A DNA stretch of 64,000 nucleotides from Haliclona indistincta. Lineage: Eukaryota; Porifera; Demospongiae; Haplosclerida; Chalinidae. A program made the translations under genes and the position numbers. The stretch is from positions 900,893 through 964,892 of the forward strand of contig OZ024783.1 of NCBI GenBank assembly GCA_964017065.1, in the 5' to 3' direction. Of the stretch, positions 4,621 to 47,889 are shown piece after piece; the stretch's first letter is position 1; each line of letters starts with the position of its first letter. The notes beneath the pieces were generated by a model. That model was given only the letters and a program-made list of their open reading frames with translations, was not told the DNA's origin and searched no databases.

Positions 4621-5978
4621 TCACTTGTATATAGCTCCAACTATGTTTGGTAAACCACCAGATCTGTACACACAGAGAAAGAGACATTATTCAACAGAAC
4701 TGAAGCAAGCTATGGTGAGCAGCTGTCCCTCTCACCTGAATGTATACAGGAGCACACTGCTAGCCAGACTGAATAACATCACCTACAAAGATAATAATTG
4801 AAGTTGTAATAAAAACAAGCGAACCTCGAACAGAAAGCATTTACAATAAATTTAAAAATTATTATTTACGAGTTTTGTCAAGTTTTAAATTTGTGGGAAA
4901 CTCTTTCATTGTTACAAAATAATAAATCGAGAGAATATTTATGTGTGATTACAAAACTTGATAAGGATTAAATTTCGCACTTTGAGGGGAACGTGAAAAT
5001 TAATTTTTTATGTGTGAAATTTTTAACCCACTAAGCATAACCATAGCACATGCAGTGAAAGGCACTCACATCTCCGCCTGGGACTGGCTGGATCATGCCG
5101 CGACTCTTTGCCATTCTGTACAATGTCTCAACCGCCTGTGAAGAAGATGACAATAATGGAGAGAGACGGAGATTTATTGTCTTCTCCCAATGCTGAAGTG
5201 AAAAGTGTAGAGTGTCACCTTCATGCACTAATGTGTTCAGTCTCTGATCATCCTCCATCGTGTGAATAAAGACAACAGTGACTACAGACATTAGTGCATG
5301 AAGGTGACACTCTACACTTTTCACTTCAGCATTGCGAGAAGACAGTAATTCACTGAAACACTCACCACAGTGCCGACATAACCCATGAGCATTCCACGTC
5401 TGCAGACACAGCAACAAGTAATAAAATTTCATTTTTGTAATTTTCAATCATTCTTTTCATGGACTTACCTTCCTTTTCGTTCGACTATTATTGCACATAA
5501 GGAAGCCAGCACAGCAGGCAAGTATCCAGCAGAAAATAAATAAAATCTACCAAACAGTCTCCTGCAATGAGAGGGAGATGCAGCTAACACTAGGTACATG
5601 GTTATGTAATGGAGTGTAACAGCAGTGAGGGCCCCACCTTATCAAGCAGATGAATGCCACAAACCCACTGCCATTGATCGCTAGAAAGAGAGAGGACCGC
5701 AGCACCTGCGGGATGCCCTTCAGTAGCATTTCACGCGGTGATCTGCGCCGAAGCACGTCCACTACCTGAAGAAAACCAGTTGAAATGCTAGCAAAATGTA
5801 AATCTGTCTGTGTGACCAGGTAGAGCGGTAGGTAGATCTTAAATCCCTCGTAGAACACGATACAGAAGAGCTCAGCAAACGAGTAGAGGCAGGATGGATG
5901 CCATGTGTGCCCCACCTCATGGCAGGTGCCCTCGTGGTAGAGCCAGGTGGACGGCCGAGAGAACTGCACCAACCCCAT
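605..5978 (-). CDS. TMEM135: Transmembrane protein 135 (TMEM135), 15 coding exons
   Basis: TMEM135 is a multipass membrane protein linked to peroxisomes, mitochondrial dynamics and lipid handling. I rebuilt the exons on the minus strand: 5978-5817, 5765-5638, 5561-5469, 5399-5366, 5135-5070, 4782-4736, 4115-4056, 3996-3939, 3880-3790, 3095-3016, 2135-2075, 1706-1630, 1345-1247, 1199-1132, 737-605. All phases agree and total 1,257 bp, giving 418 residues (vertebrate forms about 458). The family signature EVGHTWHPSC lies near the N-terminus. Other matches include VERKGR, VETLYRM, LLGYLLQTALN, RSTTITLYLG and the C-terminal YWKF segment. I chose the ATG at 5978 because the distance to the signature best fits the family; an in-frame ATG at 6026 is possible. 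The first donor (GTCACA) is weak. Introns hold MITEs and microsatellites. The C-terminus ends in a Gln-rich charged tail. Confidence 0.93.
741..1125. repeat. 15-bp minisatellite in TMEM135 intron 14
   Basis: About 25 copies of a GTGATAGTAGTGATG-type unit, with T/G variation at one position, fill nearly the whole last intron (738-1131). The long open frames across it are products of the repeat, not genes. Confidence 0.95.
1752..2068. repeat. (ACTC)n tetranucleotide array in TMEM135 intron 11
   Basis: About 300 bp of nearly perfect ACTC repeat, which is GTGA/GAGT on the gene strand. It starts right after the 5' splice site of intron 11 (exon ends at 2075), so the gene strand shows overlapping GTGAGT motifs. 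The open frames across it are repeat artefacts. Confidence 0.97.
2771..2920. mobile_element. Palindromic MITE, copy 2 (opposite orientation)
   Basis: A 150-bp copy of the palindromic element in TMEM135 intron 10. The arms match copies 1 and 3, but the asymmetric core reads as its reverse complement, so this copy inserted in the other direction. The core is also about 10 bp longer than in copy 1. Confidence 0.8.
4585..4619. repeat. (GT)n microsatellite in TMEM135 intron 6
   Basis: A run of about 17 GT dinucleotides with one interruption, inside the intron between the exons at 4782-4736 and 4115-4056. Confidence 0.9.
5188..5335. mobile_element. Palindromic MITE, copy 3
   Basis: A 148-bp copy in TMEM135 intron 4, between the exons ending at 5366 and beginning at 5135. 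It has the longest visible terminal arms, starting CAATGCTGAAGTGAAAAG. The right arm lacks a few inner bases compared with copy 1. Confidence 0.8.
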
Positions 5979-34449: not shown

Positions 34450-34609
34450 CCGGTGTCACGGTGATATGTGACCCCGGTGATGAGTGACCCCCGGTCACAT
34501 ATCACCGGTGATTTGTGACTCACGCCGCGCACGGCGGGTCACATATCACCGGAGCTAGCAGCAAGTCCCGCGGTGATGTGTGACTCCGCGGTGATATGTG
34601 ACCCCTCTG
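34450..34609. repeat. Y-element end, copy 1
   Basis: A GC-rich repeat starts CCGGTGTCACGGTGATATG and holds several GGTGATATGTGACC blocks in both directions. About 105 bp of it recurs at 40,326-40,430 in the same orientation. It starts exactly where the segmental duplication stops, so it probably inserted there. Confidence 0.75.
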
Positions 34610-35010
34610 GCAAAAACGCCGCGCATATCATGGCAAGTATTTGCAATGTTCCTATTTGCAATGGCAAGTGCAATGGCATTTGCAATGGCAAGTATTTGCA
34701 ATGTTCCGTGATACTCAGAGTGTTTAGTTCGACCAGCGAATATTAAATCATCACTGAATAATGACAGCACAGACTTAAATAAGAATCAGAACAATGATAA
34801 TGTAAATGAATACAGACAGTCTGCCAGGCTGTCACATGAACTTGTATACTTGTTAGTGCTATTAGAACATGTTATGATGTGTAATAGTAACACATGTAGT
34901 TGTGCTAGTTTAACACACTTGCAAAATAACACATGTGTAATGTGTTGTTTTTGGAGACATCAATACAACACAGCAAATTGTGCTAAAATAACACACTTGT
35001 TTTCTCTGTG
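34610..35010. other. AT-rich interior next to Y copy 1
   Basis: No gene. Short TTTGCAATG-type repeats lie at 34,630-34,705 and repeated ACACATG/AACACACTTG motifs at 34,880-35,000. I read this as the left part of the interior of the Y element. Confidence 0.4.
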
Positions 35011-38000
35011 AAAAGACAAAGGAGCAGATGGTATTGCAGAGTTCTTGTATAAGTGCTTCACGATCCACGGATGCTGCCGCATCAAGATTTCTGATCAAGG
35101 AAGAGAGTTTGTCAATCAGGTACATCAAAAAATAACACTAATACTAATAATTATTTCAAATAATAGGTGAATGATGCATGAGCTTTGCCGGCTAATGGGT
35201 GTCAGGAGCCATTTAACAAGTGCTTATCATCCTCAAAGCAATGGATTGGATGAACGCTTTAATCAAACACTCCAACGACAACTTTTGAAGTTTGTGGAAG
35301 AGGAGCAAACAGATTGGGATTTGTACATTGATTCGATTCTTTTTTCCTACCGAATTTCTCGTCAAGACTCAACTAAGCAGTCACCTTTTGTACTTGTATT
35401 CGGAAGACAGGCAAGGTTACCTATAGAGTTTAACCTAGGTGCAGATCTTGGTGAGAACGATTCTCATTACTCTGATTTCAACAATGACTCCACCCTCAGT
35501 AGTGAACAAACTGCAGCTCCGACTAATGCTTCTCTCTCTGACTCCGCCCACAACAGTAGTGACCCAACTACAGCTCCTACTAATGCTTCTCTCGCCTGCA
35601 GCAGTAGTGATCAAACTGCAGCTCCTACTAATGCTTCTCTCGCCTGCAACAGTAGTGATCAAACTGTAGTTCCTACTAATGCTTCTCTCGCCTGCAACAG
35701 TAGTGATCAAACTGCAGCTCCTACTAATGCTTCTCTCGCCTGCAACAGTAGTGACCAAACTACAGCTCCTACTAATGCTTCTCTCGCCTGCAACAGTAGT
35801 GATCAAACTGCAGCTCCTACTAATGCTTCTCTCGCCTGCAACAGTAGTGATCAAACTGCAGCTCCTACTAATGCTTCTCTCGCCTGCAACAGTAGTGATC
35901 AAACTGCAGCTCCTACTAATGCTTCTCTCGCCTGCAACAGTAGTGATCAAACTGCAGCTCCTACTAATGCTTCTCTCGCCTGCAACAGTAGTGATCAAAC
36001 TGCAGCTCCTACTAATGCTTCTCTCGCCTGCAACAGTAGTGATCAAACTGCAGCTCCTACTAATGCTTCTCTCGCCTGCAACAGTAGTGACCCAACTGCA
36101 GCTCCTACTAATGCTTCTCTCGCCTGCAGCAGTAGTGACCAAACTACAGCTCCTACTAATGCTTCTCTCGCCTGCAACAGTAGTGACCCAACTACAGCTC
36201 CTACTAATGCTTCTCTCGCCTGCAACAGTAGTGACCCAACTACAGCTCCTACTAATGCTTCTCTCGCCTGCAGCAGTAGTGATCAAACTGCAGCTCCTAC
36301 TAATGCTTCTCTCGCCTGCAACAGTAGTGACCCAACTACAGCTCCTACTAATGCTTCTCTCGCCTGCAACAGTAGTGACCCAACTACAGCTCCTACTAAT
36401 GCTTCTCTCGCCTGCAACAGTAGTGACCCAACTACAGCTCCTACTAATGCTTCTCTCGCCTGCAACAGTAGTGATCAAACTGCAGCTCCTACTAATGCTT
36501 CTCTCGCCTGCAACAGTAGTGACCCAACTACAGCTCCTACTAATGCTTCTCTCGCCTGCAACAGTAGTGATCAAACTGCAGCTCCTACTAATGCTTCTCT
36601 CGCCTGCAACAGTAGTGACCCAACTACAGCTCCTACTAATGCTTCTCTCGCCTGCAACAGTAGTGACCAAACTACAGCTCCTACTAATGCTTCTCTCGCC
36701 TGCAACAGTAGTGATCAAACTGCAGCTCCTATATACTAATGCTTCTCTCGCCTGCAACAGTAGTGACCCAACTACAGCTCCTACTAATGCTTCTCTCGCC
36801 TGCAACAGTAGTGACCCAACTACAGCTCCTACTAATGCTTCTCTCGCCTGCAACAGTAGTGACCAAACTACAGCTCCTACTAATGCTTCTCTCGCCTGCA
36901 ACAGTAGTGATCAAACTGCAGCTCCTACTAATGCTTCTCTCTCTGACTCCGCCCACAACAGTAGTGATCAAACTGCTGCTCCTATATACTAATGCTTCTC
37001 TCGCCTGCAACAGTAGTGACCCAACTACAGCTCCTACTAATGCTTCTCTCGCCTGCAGCAGTAGTGACCAAACTACAGCTCCTACTAATGCTTCTCTCGC
37101 CTGCAGCAGTAGTGATCAAACTGCAGCTCCTACTAATGCTTCTCTCGCCTGCAGCAGTAGTGACCAAACTACAGCTCCTACTAATGCTTCTCTCGCCTGC
37201 AGCAGTAGTGATCAAACTACAGCTCCTACTAATGCTTCTCTCGCCTGCAGCAGTAGTGATCAAACTGCAGCTCCTATATACTAATGCTTCTCTCGCCTGC
37301 AACAGTAGTGACCAAACTACAGCTCCTACTAATGCTTCTCTCGCCTGCAGCAGTAGTGATCAAACTACAGCTCCTACTAATGCTTCTCTCTCTGACTCCG
37401 CCCACAACAGTAGTTCATCAGCACATGACCTCCAAGTTCTTTGCACACCCAGTAGTGCTCCTCTATCATCTAGCAACTTTAATCTCAACACCCCTAGTTC
37501 TACTGCTTCAGCTCCAGGTAATGACTCAGACTTCTCTTCAGACGACTTGCTGGATTTCGATACGTCTCTTGAAAGATTAGTCAGGATTCGGAAAAAAGCT
37601 CTTAAAAACATCAAGTCTGCTCAGAGTCGACAGAAGAAGTACTATGACGCAAAGCACTGTAAAGACATTGTTCGGTATACTGTTGGATCTCTTGTGTTGT
37701 TAATGAACAGCAAAAAGCATTCCAAGAAAGGAATGAAACTAGCTCCCAACTGGACTGGCCCGTATGTAATTCATGAAGTGCTTCCAAAGGGTACTTACAG
37801 ACTACGTGACCAAGGTAATCCATCGAAAGTATTATCACAGAAGGTAAACACTTCCCGTCTGAAGCAGTTTTTCCAGCGCTCTCCTCAATTGCCTTCCACC
37901 TCAGCAACTGCTTGTGATTCCTCATCTCGAGTACCTTCCACTTTGACTACAGGTCTTTGCCTTCCTTCTACTAGTTCAGCTAATAGCTCTTTCACAGCTG

Positions 38001-38062
38001 TTAATACACTCACTTCCAATTTCATGACTCTATCTGATCAGAAAGAGGTAAGTGATTTCTAA
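35011..38062 (+). pseudogene. Integrase gene, 3' half (DDE core, 48-bp repeat region, C-terminus)
   Basis: From 35,015 the frame enters the integrase core in mid-domain. ISDQGREF carries the second catalytic Asp and QSNGLDERFN the Glu. A 48-bp intron (35,119-35,166) interrupts it, and the frame is off by one base just after that intron. A hugely expanded 16-residue repeat follows (35,515-37,395), then the C-terminal domain with WTGPYVIHEVLPKGTYRL, typical of Gypsy/Ginger/KRBA2-type integrases. Three repeat units carry a 4-bp insertion (near 36,731, 36,984 and 37,275), each giving a stop in frame. Since three times four is twelve, the frame after the third insertion equals the frame before the first. 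The HHCC zinc finger and first Asp are absent here; they lie at 41,459-42,112 on the other strand. Confidence 0.85.
35515..37395. repeat. 48-bp coding minisatellite (about 39 units)
   Basis: Tandem units of 48 bp encode NSSDQTAAPTNASLAC-type 16-mers, with Q/P and A/T alternatives. The region is Ser/Thr/Asn-rich with one Cys per unit. A few units hold the variant SLSDSAHNSS. The open frames on the opposite strand are mirror images of the repeat. Confidence 0.97.
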
Positions 38063-38666
38063 AATTAAAACTAGGAGTTACGAATACGCATGAATGCCTC
38101 GCGCTGAGTTTATTAAGTAGTTATAATTGACCAGCTAAACTTTGGGGGTGGGCTCGACAGCAGACGGCCGGCAGGTACAGATACAGCGAGCTAGCTTCCT
38201 GTTTTCGGCCTCGTGGACTCGTGTCAGACGACCTAAGAGTCAATCCCGGTTCCGTGTATTGCTAGTAGTACTGCTGATGGCGTGCCTTGCTTCTTTTGTG
38301 GCTTTAGACTCAGGCCGCTGCTCTCTGTTTTCTCCGGCTTCCTGAGCTGAGCTAGCCACTTGGCTCTGTCAGGAGTAGACTCTGAGATCTGATCCGCCAT
38401 GGTCTCAGCCCACAAGTTCTTATCTCATACGCAACCGGGTTCAGCGACCCCGTGACCCCGCAGTATAATACGTAGTATGAGCCCTCGCCGTAACCCTGAT
38501 TAGCATTCCTAAGCGTGACATCGATCTAAATATACATACATATTAACATTGCTGAGAAAACGCACGACGCTCCAGTCCCCCGCACACCGTCACGATTATT
38601 TGCCTCGCGCTAAGGCGCTCGGCAATAATTACAACAATAATTTAATGCAATTATTAGAGCTTGCAG
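38063..38666. other. Spacer upstream of the CXXC gene
   Basis: GC-richer DNA with many CpGs at about 38,140-38,600, fitting a promoter for the CXXC gene. A minus-strand frame starting at an ATG in good context (38,400) encodes about 55 residues (MADQISESTPDR at its start). I cannot link it to other exons. Confidence 0.4.
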
Positions 38667-39842
38667 ATGTTGGAAAACCAATTGTACAGCAGCTCTTTGT
38701 ACCGGAGGTGGACAACTGGCAGTAAAGAATATGCTTTCAATTCTAATGATGATGATGATGTAAACGTAAGTCATGTTATAGTACCTACTAAACTCATTAA
38801 CACTTTTGTGTAGATGGAACCTCATTTGGACAAAACTAGGGGTGAATTTGGTCTAAACATCGACTTAGATGTACTTCTTTGGGAGGAAAGTCGTGTATAT
38901 TATCAGCAAGTACCGATAAAGAGCTATCGTGACTTTCTGATCATGGATAATTGTCTGATGGAGGAATTTGATACCTTTAAGAAAAACAACATTCCGCTGG
39001 GATCCTCTGTCATTAAGTGCAATACTCTTCTAAATCTTTGGATTCTTACTCAACACGACATTTGCCAGTATTCTCTTTTTGGTGCCGATCATGTGACTCT
39101 CACACAAGAACAAGTAGACAATCTCTGTGAGTGGGTCATAGATTTGAGAGAAAGAGTTACACAAGGTGGAATAAAAGTCCTAGAAGAGCTAACTCAGCAT
39201 CTTCATTCGGTAAACATGCAATTACTTAAGCTGTATGAATTATCACCTTGTACATGTACTTCACACAGAGTATCACAAACAAGCAAACATCAACACCAAG
39301 TCACCCTTATACAGTACGTTGAAAATTATTATAATAGCCATTCCAATTAAGGAGCATACGTCTGTGGAAAAACAGAAAATAAACGGGCACACTGTATGTT
39401 CATGCTTGACTGTGCAGCTGTAATGTACAAAATTTTATAGAAGGAAGTTTTTGAAACATGCTGAGCGGCGGAAATATATTTACTACTGCACTTATTTGAT
39501 AGGATGATAAACTCCTGACAATACTTGCAGTTGTATTATTGACCTCCTATGCAGGCCCCATCTCAAGCAACTGCTCATAAGACTTCAAGAAAACGAAGAA
39601 AACGTTGTGGTAGTTGTGCTGAGTGCACTAGGAAAGATTGCGGGCAGTGTAAAAACTGCAAAGATATGGTCAAGTTTGTGGATCGTCTTATCAAACATGT
39701 TAGTGGTTAAAATTGCACAAAAACAAAATGAAGTTGCTAATTTTTGATTATCGCCTATTAATATTTTCTTTAGGACAGAGTATTGATCCAAGCAGAAGAC
39801 CATACAATCTCTGTCAATCCAGACTACCATGATGAGCAATGA
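38667..39842 (+). CDS. CXXC zinc-finger protein with novel N-terminal domain
   Basis: Four exons, 38667-38765, 38814-39209, 39555-39698 and 39774-39842, all joined in phase 0 by GT-AG introns, give 235 residues. Residues 33-165 form an acidic and hydrophobic domain (VLLWEESRVYYQQVP; CEWVIDLRERV) that I do not recognise. Residues about 180-205 are a CXXC zinc finger: RKRRKRCGSCAECTRKDCGQCKNCKDM, cut at the KF position where the KFGG loop and last cysteines would normally follow. CXXC fingers bind unmethylated CpG DNA. The tail is short and acidic. The gene lies about 600 bp downstream of the integrase half on the same strand, and both appear to belong to one mobile element. The loss of the last cysteines may make the finger unstable, or a partner may complete it. 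Confidence 0.72.
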
Positions 39843-40185
39843 GATAAATAATCTTTACTGTTGACGTCAAACTGTTTGCTGTAATAATTGTTTTTCTTTT
39901 GTTTTCATTACCTGTATCACTTATTAATCATTAACACTTGACTATTTATCGTTGTGTTCTGTTTCTGTTGACAATAATTATACACGCCCCATGATTCAAA
40001 TCAAGCTATATAGCTAGGCGCTGGATATTTTCTAGCTCCATGTGGAACTGCTAAGTTGTTAGTATAGTTGTTACACTGAGTGCATGAGTTGGTCTAGTTA
40101 GGCTATGTAGCACAGCAGATGTAGAGATCATTCCGTGGCGTTTCTACCTATTCGCCGTTTCGTGACCTGCGTACCGGCGATTGCT
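39843..40185. other. 3' region after the CXXC gene
   Basis: AT-rich, with no gene. Probably the 3' UTR and the inner flank of the transposon end. Confidence 0.45.
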
Positions 40186-40189
40186 ATAG

Positions 40190-40325
40190 GCTATAGCGGC
40201 ACGATTTCCTAAACGCAGCTGTATTTCCTAGGAAACTTTGCCTCTGAGCCGACACGCCGCTACCAAATTTCCTAGGAAAAATTGTCGCAGCGGCAAAATT
40301 TCCTAGCGGCCAGATTTCCTGTGAC
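40190..40325. repeat. Integrase-CXXC element, 3' terminal repeat
   Basis: Two TTTCCTAGGAAA palindromes and the block ATTTCCTAAACGC. The same block, with the same 6-base spacing to TTTCCTAGGAAA and a later CCAAATTTCC, occurs at 42,190-42,252 beside the integrase 5' half. I read these as the two ends of one element. Confidence 0.65.
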
Positions 40326-40430
40326 ACCGGTGTCACGGTGATATGTGACCCCCGGTGATGAGTGACCCCCGGTCACATATCACCGGTGATTTGTGACTCA
40401 CGCCGCGCACGGTGGGTCACATATCACCGC
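40326..40430. repeat. Y-element end, copy 2
   Basis: About 105 bp, almost identical to 34,450-34,553 and in the same orientation. With the preceding bases it makes a perfect 16-bp palindrome, GTGACACCGGTGTCAC (40,321-40,336). It directly abuts the integrase-CXXC element end. Confidence 0.75.
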
Positions 40431-41454
40431 GCAGTGCATGATCGGATGGATCGCCGGAATAGCCTCGTTCTCGGTTCTGGTGTCACTTTTTGTACTGAGC
40501 TGCAGCTAGCCGGCTGCTTGCACTGGAGGCGCTGCCACCACAGTGAACGTCTGTGATCATGAAAATATCGAGACTGTTATACTGAACGTCTGTGATCAGG
40601 TGAACTTCAGTTACGATCTGGAACTAGATGGTAGTGTGGCTGCAGTCTGGATCTGGATGGAGAAGATCCTGTTGTGATGGTGAAATCAGTGAATATCTAT
40701 CAAAAAAACTAGCAGACCCTTAAATAGAACCAAAGTGTTGGTTAGATGGCAGGGTTTGTGTCTTGGATACATGCAGCTGGTTGTGGCAGAGTGTGATAAG
40801 GTATTAGCTCAAACTGGCATCAATACTTGTGATGTACACAGACTGATGTGCACGTATAAAGGTTCTTAGCTCGAGACTGTTTACATATTACCAGCAGAGT
40901 GATTAGTCTAGCATCACCAAATGGTTTAACCCTTTAGGGCCTATAGCGGATTTAGCCGTCATAATTGACTCCACCTACTGTAGACGTCATAAATAGTGTG
41001 AAAAGTGCTCTAGAAAGGTCAAATAAAGTTTAATTGCAAAAGCTAACTTTACCTGAAAAAACCCACTGTTTTTCGCCGCGCCCTCCCCACTAAAATATAT
41101 AGAACGGGGGATTTTTAAAGGGGGGTGTCCCCCCTTTAACCCGGGGTTTGAAGGGGCGGAGCCCCTCGCCGCTTTCGGCATTTTTGGGGCTTCAGGATGC
41201 CCGTAAATGCATACTTGGGCATAGAATATGGTCTAAACTATGCTGTTTGCTCACCTGGACACCACCAGGTTTTTGTATCAGTCACCAGGGCTAAACGAAG
41301 ACCAATATTGGCTGAAAAATGACGAGGCTGCAGCACTTAAGCGGCTTCAGTTCCGAATTGGGAGTGGCCAACTCAGAGTTTAGTACATGGTCGTAAACTT
41401 TGACATGCCAGGAAAAAACAGTGCTAGTTTGGAACAGCTAGCGTACTGCATGCA
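40431..41454. other. Interior beside Y copy 2, no gene recognised
   Basis: No convincing coding region. A GC-rich patch at 41,060-41,190 has runs of G and C that can fold (around GGGGGGTGTCCCCCC). I read the stretch as the other part of the Y-element interior, now separated by the inversion. Confidence 0.4.
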
Positions 41455-42112
41455 TTTTAACGCTGTTGCCTCAGGCCATTTGGAAAAGAGGCAGCTGACA
41501 GTCATTATGTACTTGTTGCCTCTGGGTGTCTCAGGAAGAGGTCCAATCAGGTCAATTCCCACAGTGTCCCATACTTCTGCCTTTACAGGAAGCTCAGCTG
41601 TTGTTTTGTCAAATTTCCTAACGTGTAAGCACAATAATTATTTTACACATGAATTGTGTCGATATCATGTACCTGTTTGCTCTTTGGCACTTTTCACATG
41701 TACGGCAAAAATTCTTAACATCCTCGACAATTCCCTGCCAGTAAAATCGTTCTGTAATCTTAGCAAGAGTCTTGTCCCTTCCAAAATGCCCTCCTCCTAG
41801 CACACTCGAATGACACTCCTCCAGCACTTGTGATTTTGACAGGACTTCACTACCTACACCAGTGATGATTTAGCAGATAAACTAACAAGTTGTCAATATA
41901 ATATAGTAACTAGCTCATGCACCCACAGTTACTCTCTATACACTGACCTGCAAATCTACTTGGCTCTTCTTCTCCCTGTGATACAGCAAACCGTTTTTGA
42001 TTAAAAAGCTCTTCCCTTTCCTTCTCAAACGGTCTTTCTCTGCCTTGCTGAATTCTGAAGGGAATGTACCGCTGCAACAAAGATTGTACAGTCTGTCGTA
42101 CAATTCGGGCTC
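41455..42112 (-). pseudogene. Integrase gene, 5' half (HHCC finger and start of DDE core)
   Basis: Three exons on the minus strand. The first (about 42,112-41,950) starts MEPELYDRLYNL. The second (about 41,863-41,680) encodes the HHCC zinc finger with GGGHFGRDKTLAKI and CRTCEKCQRAN. The third (about 41,625-41,455) encodes the start of the integrase core: WDTVGIDLIGPLP holds the first catalytic Asp, then FSKWPEA. The coding match stops at 41,455-41,458, exactly where the half at 35,011 on the plus strand would continue in frame. The four bases at the two break sites are identical (AAAA on the gene strand). No other copy of either half is in the window. Confidence 0.85.
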
Positions 42113-42184
42113 CATTTTATACTGCAGCTGCAGACGGTACACGCGTAGCAGGTGTGAATCAAAACAGCGGCACTAGTGCGCGGT

Positions 42185-42255
42185 AAGCTGCAGAATTTCC
42201 TAAACGCGACCATTTTTCCTAGGAAATAGTGCCGCTGATGCTGCCAAATTTCCCA
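42185..42255. repeat. Integrase-CXXC element, 5' terminal repeat
   Basis: ATTTCCTAAACGC, then TTTCCTAGGAAA, then CCAAATTTCC, with spacing like that at 40,190-40,325. It lies about 75 bp upstream of the integrase start codon. Confidence 0.6.
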
Positions 42256-42259
42256 TATG

Positions 42260-42375
42260 GACTTGTCATCCGGCTCCACGCACAGGCCGGAAATACCTCC
42301 ACTCACAGGCCGGAAATAGGCAGACCTTGTCATCCGCCTACTCCACGCACAGGCCGGAAATCTCAATCACAGGCC
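42260..42375. repeat. Short repeats of CACAGGCCGGAAAT
   Basis: Four copies of CACAGGCCGGAAAT or a one-base variant, with two CTTGTCATCCG blocks, in a tandem-like patch just outside the element end. Confidence 0.8.
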
Positions 42376-42591
42376 GGAAGTTTCCATAAAGCTCCACCAA
42401 AGGTAGCACCAGAGATAATATATACTACGTAACCGGGATAAGAAACTCTATTTAAGCGAATGAAACAACCCGCGTTATAAACGTGATACGTCACTTGACG
42501 TCTCAAAATGTCTACTTCATGTAAGCAGACGTACATCATCAGCTATTGCTGGACCTAGACGAGCTGGAAAGTGACACTGCCTGTACGTGGA

Positions 42592-44993: not shown

Positions 44994-45991
44994 ATGTCGT
45001 CGGCTAGCACTACTGGTACGACGACTATTACTGCCAGTAGTCATCCGCCTTCCTCCAGTGGCACTACTATTACAACCGCGACTGGAGCAAGCGCGAGCAT
45101 TCTGCCACCTGGCCCACCTCCTATATCACTGGCGACCAGTTCGCTAAGTTGATGGACGCCATTCAGGCGTCCCAGGTCAGGATGGATACTAAGTTGGCGG
45201 AATTCCAGAATCAGGTCTGCCGCAGTCAGGACGAAGCTGCTGCTAAAGCCGTCAAAAAATCCAGGTCTGCAGAGGCACCCTACCAGTATAAGAAGAAAGG
45301 GAACGAAGCCCAGGCAAAGTTCAACGCTGAAGTGGAGGATGCAGTTCAGGAGGCCATGGACGAGCTCGAGGGAGAGAGTCGCCCTTCGCAGGCGGTGGAA
45401 CGAGCTAAAGCTGCCCTTGAAAAAGGTGCGAAGAAAATTGCCGAAAGGCAAAAACTGATAAAATTGGCGGACAGGTCCGACTTTGGTTGGGCGGTCGTCA
45501 CGGAGTACACCGCGGACGAGCTTGCCGACAATTCGGAGGACGAAAAGAGAATCGAAAAGGCCGAGAAAGCGGCAGAGAAGAAGTCGGTAAAGCGAAGGAA
45601 GGTTGCAGGCAGACCAACTCCTGCAAAGCAACCCCGCAGTGTAGCCACTCCCAGTTTGAGTGTCAGCAGTGCTACCCAGGTGCCCAGACGTCCTGGATTG
45701 ATCCCGGCAGTGGCCAAGAGTCGCCCGTTGGGCCCATGTTTTACGTGTGGCGAGATGGGACATCTCCACAGCTTTTGTCCCAGAAGAGAAGGACAAGCCC
45801 TGAGCGGCAAGAAGTGGTATCCTTCACGTAGTGTTATGTGTGTGTCTAGTTCTATCAATGCATGTAGTGGTGATGGTAGCTCCATTGATTCTGAGTGTGT
45901 TGTTGATGAGCTAGTAGATGATATTGATGAGCCTCATGTAGATAGACGAACATGGGAGGCTGAGGCTGTAAGCCCATGCAGACTGTTGTGA
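44994..45991 (+). pseudogene. Gag-like protein with zinc knuckle
   Basis: An ATG at 44994 opens a Ser/Thr-rich segment that stops at 45,150. The continuing protein is in another frame (ITGDQFAKLMDAIQASQ, from about 45,130 to 45,991), so one frameshift lies between them. The main part is Lys/Glu/Ala-rich with ADRSDFGWAVVTEYTADELA, a segment common in DIRS/Ngaro gag proteins, and ends with a CCHC zinc knuckle CFTCGEMGHLHSFC. Gag would package the element RNA. Confidence 0.8.
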
Positions 45992-45992
45992 T

Positions 45993-47889
45993 ATGTCTGT
46001 TCAGGGTAGACTGAAAGAGAAAATCCAATTCTGGAGGGATGTGTTGAAGGCTCCCAGCACAGTCTTGAATACAATTGAATCAGGTTATGTGCTTCCATTG
46101 AAGAGTGAGCCAACCCCTAACATACAATGTAATCAGCAATCTGCAATTGTTAATGCTGACTTTGTTCAGCAGAGTGTGTCAGAGCTTATGATGAACAGGT
46201 GTGTAAAACAAGTATTGGAAGTACCGTACATTTGTAGTCCATTGTCTGTGGTTGAAAGTAGCAGTGGGAAGAAGCGTTTAGTAATCAATCTTCGTCACCT
46301 GAATAGATTTTTGTGGAAGCAAAGATTTAAGTATGAAGATTTAAGAGTTGCAATGTTGTTGTTTGAAAAGGGTGATTTCCTGTTTTCGTTTGATTTAAAG
46401 TCCGGTTACCACCATGTTGATATCGCCACAATACACCAAAAGTACCTTGGTTTTTCGTGGCAGGGAGCTTACTATGTATTTACTGTCTTACCATTTGGTT
46501 TGTCCACTGCTTGTATACATGTTTACTAAACTCCTTCGTCCTCTAGTCAGTTACTGGCGAGGACAGGGTATTAGGATTGTGGTGTATCTTGATGATGGTC
46601 TAGGTGCCGCCGTAGGAGAAGCAAATGCAAGCAGAGCCAGCGGAATAGTTTGTGCTACATTAGAACAGGCTGGCTTTCAAGCAAATTTTAAAAAATCAGT
46701 CTGGCAGCCTACGCAGCGTCTGCAATGGTTGGGTTTTGTACTTGATTTAGCACAAGGTCAAGTAGAGGTTCCACAGGAAAAAATAGTTAAGCTATTAGAC
46801 ATGCTTCGACAAGCAGTACTAAAGCCCAGCCTGTCAGCCAGATTCCTTGCTAGTATTGTGGGTAGAATAATATCAATGGGCCTCGCTGTAGGTCCAGTGA
46901 GTCGTTTTATGACTCGTAGTTTATATGCAGTCCTCGAATCTAGACAAATGTGGTGTGGTATGCTCACACTATCGGAAGAGGCAAGAAGCGAGCTTGAATT
47001 CTGGTCAGCTAGCCTTGCTGACTACAAAGCTCAACCAATATGGCACTCTCCTTCAGCAGTAAGGGTAGTATATTCAGATGCCAGTGATACTGGCTATGGA
47101 GGGTATATAGTGGAGCATGGTCACTATGTAGCCTATGGTCAATGGAGCCTCGATGAAAGTCAACAGAGCTCTACATGGCGCGAGCTAACTGCGGTTTGGC
47201 GAGTGCTACAGTCACTCGAAAAGAAATTGGCTAATTTGTGCATTCGATGGTTTTCGGATAACCAGAATGTAGTTCGCATTTTGCAAGTTGGCAGTCGCCA
47301 ACCACATCTCCAAGCAATTGCCCTAAAGATTTTTGCTTTATCAATAAACTCTCACATTCACCTGCAACCCGAATGGGTTCCCAGAGAACTGAACGAACAA
47401 GCTGATTATCTCAGCCGAATTGTTGATTTAGATGATTGGATGTTGAATCCACAAGTTTTTGAACAGCTAGATGCATTGTGGGGTCCATATACTGTGGATA
47501 GATTCGCCAGCTGTGATAATACACAACTGCCTCGATTCAATAGTCGCTGTTGGAACCCTGGATCAGAAGCTGTAGATGCTTTTACGGTTAATTGGCAAGG
47601 TGAAAACAATTGGTGGTGTCCGCCAATTGTACTGATCCCTAGAGTCATTCGACATGCACAAATATGTGGCGCTCAGGGTACTTTAATTGTTCCTCACTGG
47701 TCATCTGCTCCATTCTGGCCCATCATTTGCCCATCTGGTGGTCAATTTGAGAAGTATGTTACATATGTAATGGAGTTACCCTTAATAGAAGGCTTGTTTG
47801 TTCCTGGGCGTTCAGGTGCTGTGTTATTTAACAATAAGGTGCCAAATACCAAAGTGTTAGCTTTGTGTTGTGATTTTTCAATGTGTTGA
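45993..47889 (+). pseudogene. Reverse transcriptase / RNase H (one frameshift)
   Basis: The frame from 45993 encodes the fingers and palm of the reverse transcriptase (KRLVINLRHLN, FSFDLKSGYHH, VLPFGLSTA). At about 46,515 the frame shifts by one base and continues to 47889 with VVYLDDG (the catalytic YxDD), the thumb, and an RNase H domain (VVYSDASDTGYGGY, then FSDNQNVV). Without the shift, these would form one polyprotein. Confidence 0.88.

Follow-up and report, generated by a model that had tools for sequence, protein, structure and literature searches.

Ginger1 transposons have a Gypsy-like integrase with an H2C2 zinc finger, a DDE core and a GPY/F motif, measure 2.6–7 kb, carry inverted repeats of 40–270 bp with TGTNR ends, and are flanked by CCGG or CCGT target copies (PMC2836005). 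In the parts of that source cited here, the genes have 0–4 introns, the accessory domains in its Table 1 are OTU, Ulp1 and PHD only, and a C-terminal OTU or Ulp1, called an additional domain, occurs in all but one of the families for which the table states it; Ulp1 and OTU are common to Ginger1, Mutator and Helitron elements, and the vertebrate Gin genes derive from Ginger1 (PMC2836005). Here we analyse a 64-kb stretch of the genome of the sponge Haliclona indistincta (contig OZ024783.1, positions 900,893–964,892; hereafter, the window), which contains a dead copy of what is probably a Ginger1-type transposon, split by a 6.4-kb inversion. In two sister copies elsewhere in the genome the integrase is followed by a complete CXXC finger.

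The modules known to target integrases recognise histone marks or partner proteins (chromodomains, LEDGF). The reading that we favour, and for which we have reasonable confidence, is that the window holds a dead Ginger1-type copy and that the CXXC finger of its family holds the transposase on unmethylated CpG-rich DNA. If this is true, the transposase would itself read unmethylated CpG and so link host DNA methylation directly to the landing sites of a transposon, a possible explanation of the way in which elements reach unmethylated regions when the animal genome around them is methylated. The window is also a clear example of a rearranged element whose structure can be worked out once sister copies are compared.

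A Ginger1-type transposase followed by a CXXC finger

The genome searched for relatives was the 144-Mb assembly that holds the window. With the 3′ part of the integrase as the query, four places matched at an identity of at least 96%: the window and three sister copies (L032, L033 and L034), which were compared with the window by alignment; the next match was only 47–48% identical. In L032, eight GT–AG exons with matching phases, the borders of which we chose, yield a single frame of 985 residues, with no premature stop in its 2,958 coding bases. The window exons (Table 1) were placed by comparison with L032. Pfam identifies the H2C2 finger (PF17921, expect value (E) 9.7e-21) and, below its cut-off, the rve core (E 3.6e-6). 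Residues picked by eye form a DD35E core, in which 35 residues separate the last D and the E, and NWTGPYVI, also picked by eye, fits the GPY/F motif; SH3_Tf2-1 gave a weak match only (E 0.006), and the GPY/F region aligns with relatives from Ephydatia muelleri at 50–65% identity. A linker of 16-residue repeats, encoded by a 48-bp array in exon 4, separates the core from the GPY/F region in L032; the array has 37.9 copies in the window, 10.8 in L032, 7.2 in L033 and 17.9 in L034.

Exon 7 of L032 encodes a complete CXXC finger (PF02008, E 9.8e-15). Eight zinc-binding cysteines, KFGG and KQ make up the defining set of CXXC domains that bind unmethylated CpG, and all of these are kept in L032 and L033. 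The best-scoring solved relatives are the CXXC domains of DNMT1; by analogy with host proteins, in which the finger recognises unmethylated CpG, that of the transposon family may do the same. No OTU or Ulp1 was found by Pfam in the L032 pieces from the GPY/F region to the end, where the CXXC finger stands instead. As the eight exons of L032 give one open frame, the CXXC finger is probably part of the transposase, and we think it likely that integrase and finger are encoded by one spliced gene. The preliminary description of the window had proposed a transposon with two co-oriented genes: the pairing itself holds, with a complete finger in L032 and L033 and a truncated one in the window, but one spliced gene is the likelier arrangement.

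For the domain encoded by exon 6, named MEPHL here from the residues with which it begins, no Pfam match was stronger than E 0.065, and an AlphaFold2 model built from five sequences was too poor to use (mean predicted local distance difference test score 50.2, predicted template modelling score 0.37). The Ephydatia gene model P0021 joins an integrase to a weak relative of MEPHL (30% identity over 50 residues, single-comparison E 5e-4), which supports MEPHL as a part of the transposase. Distant copies of the second half of MEPHL, 35–42% identical, also lie at C6:11007224, C1:6620008, C5:698616 and C7:9627282 (L082–L085); neither an integrase nor a CXXC finger was seen in these 3-kb loci.

Element ends, target copies and relatives

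The element ends begin TGTCACAGGAAAT, and the inverted repeats start with TGTCA. The pattern of the repeat block that forms the ends occurs 15 times in the 144 Mb, compared with no occurrence of a reversed-pattern control. L032 and L033 measure 4,682 and 4,868 bp between their target copies, and their inverted repeats align over 136 and 145 bases, target copies included, at 78–79% identity (79% in L032). The four bases outside 28 end matches are CCGG in 13, ACGG or CCGT in 2, CCAG in 3, CAGG in 4 and another sequence in 6, such that 13 of the 28 lack CCGG, CCGT or ACGG. Six elements in this list have two ends: their target copies are identical in three cases (L032, CCGG/CCGG; C5:377097-378184, CCGG/CCGG; C8:9193031-9194431, ACGG/ACGG), differ by one base in one and are unmatched in two. 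L033 has CCAG on one side and CCGG on the other, the kind of change that decay of methylated CpG gives.

The restored window element had been estimated at about 6.1 kb, a size that the two-ended sisters do not share; the window copy is longer owing to its longer 48-bp array and a 553-bp inserted repeat. Of the end block that had been expected at both ends, the right-hand repeat is present, but the left-hand one is incomplete and stops at 42253; apart from the right-hand repeat, no other place in the window was found to carry its outer tip.

The relatives search with the integrase gave 756 proteins, of which the best 120 were considered; only proteins of up to about 520 residues were returnable, so a full-length fusion of integrase and CXXC finger would not be visible in it. 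The integrase-like set from Ephydatia muelleri comprises P0004, P0005, P0006, P0009, P0010 and P0012, two of which are assigned by an ‘Em’ identifier only. The tails of P0005, P0009 and P0010 resemble a Ulp1-type protease by eye, and Pfam makes no call there at E up to 1. Among the best 120 of the 756 proteins and P0001–P0003, a CXXC pattern was found only in P0002 and P0003, which themselves came from a CXXC search. A tree of 21 integrases places the family with the Ephydatia proteins (support 100/99; identity to the best relative, 70% over 298 residues). The family lies on the same side as proteins from Hydra and a sea cucumber that bear the name gypsy integrase-like protein 1 (GIN1-like), and a 99/99 split separates it from four integrases of long open frames of the host, two of which show the YLDD motif of reverse transcriptase nearby. 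The tree has no named Ginger1 reference, two further proteins lie on the gypsy side, and, because its long branches meet and 10 of its 18 inner branches are open, it supports the split and little more.

As the integrase part has most of the features described for Ginger1 in the parts of PMC2836005 cited here, it is not a new kind, and the window element is probably a Ginger1-type transposon. The view that an integrase–CXXC transposon was undescribed thus survives in one half: the integrase is of a known kind, but a CXXC finger in this place was not found in print. The literature search, which left most subscription papers and Repbase outside its scope, found no transposon with an integrase and a CXXC finger, nor one with MULE or SWIM and a CXXC finger. 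No transposon with a CXXC domain is reported in the parts of PMC12460157, PMC11292947, PMC10045372 and PMC12863088 cited here, and the word CXXC does not occur in those of PMC10045372 or PMC12863088. Judged by sequence, the C-terminal MEPHL and CXXC appear to be a new part of an otherwise known Ginger1-type element.

An inversion across two adjoining elements

The window copy is inverted over 35,011–41,458, because L032 and L034 cross both break sites uninterrupted: each aligns to window positions 42253–41455 and then directly onward from 35008. L033 is colinear with the restored order and has a small deletion at the break site. The two window-matching blocks overlap at 5903–5909 in L032, and therefore nothing was lost at the join; within the overlap, TTTT at 5903–5906 corresponds to the four bases common to both breaks, TTTT at 41455–41458 and AAAA at 35011–35014. 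The restored order was read from the sister copies.

Beside the Ginger-type copy lies an element of a second family, Y, which has a long and a short arm. In all 11 other loci with strong matches to both arms within about 5.2 kb, the arms face in opposite directions, and CCGG lies outside nearly all of the other copies. Only in the window do the arms face the same way; together with the order of the Ginger-type element in the sisters, this means that one inversion explains both elements. The 16-base double end GTGACACCGGTGTCAC, in which two element ends surround one CCGG, occurs at two sites in the genome, the window and C5:2901681-2901696. Both junctions join a Ginger-type end to a Y element, but by different Y arms. 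As every insertion leaves CCGG at its rim, the rim of an inserted element is a new target.

The main claim of the preliminary description, that an inversion split a single transposon and that a second element adjoins it, is therefore strongly supported by relatives. Both sisters that cross the breaks run through the join, as expected if the two integrase halves are parts of one protein that meet without a gap; the shared four bases correspond to one stretch in L032; the repeat block, predicted to form terminal inverted repeats once restored, is inverted in L032 and L033; and the Y repeats behave in other loci as the inverted ends of a second element. A genome search for two-ended copies, which that description had proposed, yielded L032, with both ends, integrase, CXXC finger and matching CCGG target copies.

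The longest Y copy, L075 (C1:15531400-15536720), has a YPYY-like motif and a MEPHL domain that is 46% identical over 78 residues to that of the Ginger-type family, which makes Y a related family. Upstream of the zinc finger the Ginger-type family reads FP...F...LYH and Y reads YP...F...LYY, as judged by eye against the YPYY description. No CXXC finger was seen in L075, the only Y copy read through; as this copy has lost its integrase core and contains a nested gene, the absence of the finger from Y is not firm. The nested gene is hAT-like, as named by eye.

Copies, age and decay

Four coding copies are known: the CXXC finger is complete in L032 and L033 and truncated in the window copy, and the match to L034 stops at window position 39338, before the finger. 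Exons 1, 3, 5 and 6 are identical in L032 and L034, exon 2 has one difference and exon 4 is 97–98% alike; owing to this near-identity, recent movement of the family is probable. In L033, a part of exon 3 is missing. The other copies differ in a way that resembles neutral decay after insertion, so that counts of synonymous and non-synonymous changes speak neither for nor against function.

The copy in the window is dead. Exon 4 begins out of frame, and the copy lacks 415–420 bp present in L033 and L032, a deletion that removed the second half of the CXXC finger. The other genome matches listed for the 553-bp repeat in its intron are 88–98% identical.

Table 1 Features of the Ginger-type copy, the adjoining Y element and inserted repeats in the window
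Feature	Position	Strand	Basis
Left part of Y: CCGG target copy (34450–34453), then 156-bp arm	34450..35014	+	Other Y copies
Inversion break site 1 (AAAA)	35011..35014	.	Sister comparison
Transposase exon 3, second part	35011..35119	+	Comparison with L032 exons, borders checked
Transposase exon 4: second half of integrase core, 16-residue repeat linker, GPY/F; frame broken at start	35167..38047	+	
48-bp repeat array, 37.9 copies, within exon 4	35551..37390	+	
553-bp repeat in intron after exon 4, not in the three sisters	38071..38623	.	At least 40 genome matches
Transposase exon 5	38658..38765	+	Comparison with L032
Transposase exon 6, MEPHL domain	38814..39209	+	Comparison with L032
Exon 7, CXXC finger, second half deleted; Pfam match (39585–39698) extends beyond the deletion point	39555..39678	+	
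Right terminal inverted repeat; CCGG target copy (40327–40330) common to Y	40195..40330	+	Sister comparison
Other arm of Y, 102-bp arm (40327–40429), now in direct orientation	40327..40932	+	Other Y copies
Transposase exon 3, first part	41455..41617	-	Comparison with L032 exons
Inversion break site 2 (TTTT)	41455..41458	.	Sister comparison
Transposase exon 2, H2C2 zinc finger; one base shorter than in L032	41673..41853	-	Comparison with L032
Transposase exon 1, start codon 42115–42113	41948..42115	-	Comparison with L032 exons
Left terminal inverted repeat, remnant; outer tip absent	42185..42253	-	Sister comparison
156-bp end of another repeat, probably a transposon, replacing the outer tip of the left repeat	42254..42409	+	

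The 156-bp repeat end is found elsewhere in opposite-facing pairs about 6 kb apart (for example, C10:1686561 and C10:1692923); in the window, positions 42254–42560 join it to a second repeat that begins at about 42408. Open frames at 45041–46529 contain a CCHC-type finger and a reverse-transcriptase-like stretch, both recognised by eye, and probably belong to a retroelement.

CpG content at insertion sites

The ratio of observed to expected CpG is 0.56 in the window and 0.61 pooled over 15 random 500-bp pieces; the genome is CpG-depleted, as in methylated genomes. A host gene of DNMT1 type has an RFD match at C2:3553196 and a CXXC match about 1 kb downstream. For the flanks of insertions, we used 20 ends of 15 insertions out of the 28 ends, mostly non-coding relatives with near-identical ends; the 8 dropped were those of the window, ends abutting another element and degenerate ends. 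The 500-bp flanks have a mean ratio of 0.92 (n = 15 insertions), which exceeds both the 0.61 of the random pieces (one-sided P 0.0009) and the 0.63 at 37 CCGG sites of the window that served as controls (one-sided P 1e-5). The pooled ratio falls with distance, from 1.12 in the first 100 bp through 0.84–0.90 up to 600 bp and 0.72 up to 1 kb to 0.67 farther out; at the control sites it is 0.57–0.69 over the distances. For six ends that belong to the coding family and its closest relatives, the ratios are 0.85–1.02. Insertions thus tend to lie in locally CpG-replete, presumably unmethylated DNA.

CXXC fingers beside SWIM domains

CXXC fingers also accompany a second kind of element. Among the matches listed, 23 of 23 SWIM matches are followed on their own strand by a CXXC match 304–1255 bp downstream; the comparison took in 51 of the 97 CXXC matches in the genome, 28 of the 51 being without such a SWIM match. 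One locus (L076, C1:13873000-13877500) has SWIM, CXXC and OTU matches over the Pfam cut-offs and a MULE match under its cut-off, and another (L003) has SWIM and CXXC in Pfam. Several SWIM-linked CXXC matches are equal in score and frame length, and for this reason the loci resemble transposon copies. The SWIM-bearing elements of this genome, probably MULE transposons, seem to carry a CXXC finger as a rule. The finger looks like a further accessory module, after OTU and Ulp1, that is common to Ginger1 and other superfamilies. Our broader proposal, that such transposons read the host methylome by means of the finger (through steered insertion or gated mobilisation) and that at least two unrelated superfamilies of this genome, Ginger1 and SWIM/MULE, each recruited it, is tentative, and we would not yet bet on it.

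Alternative explanations

Two alternatives concern what the window contains. An assembly error at the inversion is very improbable: the analysis is based on assembled sequence, but the breaks fall at a four-base match and not in long inverted repeats, where misassembly is expected, and a single inversion rearranges both neighbouring elements consistently. We give still less credence to the idea that the integrase is a fragment of a Ty3/Gypsy retrotransposon. Gypsy integrases belong to the same protein family, and the genome has 151 integrase matches among the matches listed; against this, Pfam found no reverse transcriptase or RNase H in the four L032 protein pieces scanned, inverted terminal repeats and CCGG target copies are present, and the tree places the family apart from the integrases of long host frames. 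A finger that holds the transposase on unmethylated CpG-rich DNA, the reading we favour, has several observations to contend with, and these touch both the gene and the insertion sites. In the gene, the donor before the CXXC exon is weak and is not among the donors scoring at least 6 of 9, exon 6 can end at its own stop codon, and the region of the CXXC exon has a possible start codon. A survey with a simple consensus finds an alternative phase-0 donor inside exon 6 in both L032 and L033; the similarity to Y ends near this donor, but a stop codon follows there. Synonymous changes are not in excess among the differences between copies. The finger could be a separate small gene or a passenger, a captured fragment of a host gene or a MULE element with no role in transposition; its own open frame and possible start codon, the stop codon of exon 6 and the frequency of CXXC domains beside SWIM domains in the H. 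indistincta genome would fit this. We consider it rather unlikely, as exons 5–8 of L032 join in phase 0 through the complete finger to the final stop, the CXXC and last-exon frames are open in L033 as well, and the accessory domains described for Ginger1 are C-terminal parts of the transposase (in the parts of PMC2836005 cited here).

At the insertion sites, the 8 dropped ends have a lower mean CpG ratio of 0.81 (range 0.51–1.07), the surviving outer flank of the window copy, beside Y, has a ratio of 0.26, and the control CCGG sites all represent one 64-kb region. The flanks of Y, in a set without the window locus and without the Y copy that adjoins a related element, have a mean of 0.81 (n = 10; one-sided P 0.04 versus random) and do not differ from those of the Ginger-type family (P 0.33). 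As Y, in the longest copy of which the finger was not seen, shares the bias, it may come from the integrase or from open chromatin, and a preference for CCGG exists in Ginger1 elements without CXXC (in the parts of PMC2836005 cited here). Given the trend in Y and the CpG-poor flank in the window, the finger is not proven to be the cause of the CpG-rich sites. It might instead bind the ends or promoter of its own element, such that only unmethylated copies are mobilised or expressed. The inverted repeats of L032 and L033 are indeed CpG-replete (1.06–1.22) and the element bodies depleted (0.50–0.54), and the similar site bias of Y speaks for this too; however, CpG-rich ends occur in Y also (1.04 and 1.07), and the enrichment at insertion sites would need another cause. 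We regard binding to the element’s own DNA as a serious but somewhat unlikely alternative to a finger that acts on the target.

Proposed mechanism

In the mechanism that we propose, the transposase (H2C2 finger, DD35E core, repeat linker and GPY/F region) would recognise the inverted repeats and carry out insertion at CCGG, with a duplication of these four bases. Of this, the ends and target copies are observed; catalysis is assigned from the integrase family and the single protein from the eight-exon open frame. The CXXC finger would recognise unmethylated CpG and thereby hold the transposase on unmethylated CpG-rich DNA with CCGG targets, and could possibly also hold it on the inverted repeats, which are CpG-rich. 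The copy in the window adjoins a related Y element on a common CCGG. The inversion turned round 6.4 kb, most of the Ginger element together with the inner portion of Y, presumably by end joining at the four-base match; the 553-bp repeat, the deletion of about 420 bp and another repeat element also damaged the copy.

Comparison with known systems

The family shares with Ginger1 the integrase with H2C2 finger, DDE core and GPY/F, the TGTNR ends, inverted repeats, length and target copies, as well as introns and a C-terminal accessory domain (in the parts of PMC2836005 cited here). It differs in that the accessory part is MEPHL with CXXC, and not OTU, Ulp1 or PHD, and in having seven introns compared with 0–4 (PMC2836005); a 16-residue repeat linker between the core and the GPY/F region is a further difference. 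The Ephydatia muelleri proteins are 61–74% identical over the matched part of the integrase, and in the GPY/F region 65% in P0005 and P0006 and 50–56% in P0009 and P0012; unlike the family, they show no CXXC pattern, in a search limited to proteins of up to about 520 residues.

The SWIM/MULE-like genes (L076 and L003) resemble the Ginger-type family in having a transposase-type gene with a downstream CXXC exon, but have a SWIM finger and a weak MULE match in place of the integrase; their CXXC domains are 48–58% identical to that of the family in L001–L005, and 36% over a longer stretch in L076. The CXXC domain of DNMT1 has the same eight cysteines, CKDMVKFGG and KQ motif as that of the family. 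In DNMT1 it precedes a methyltransferase, whereas in this family it follows an integrase.

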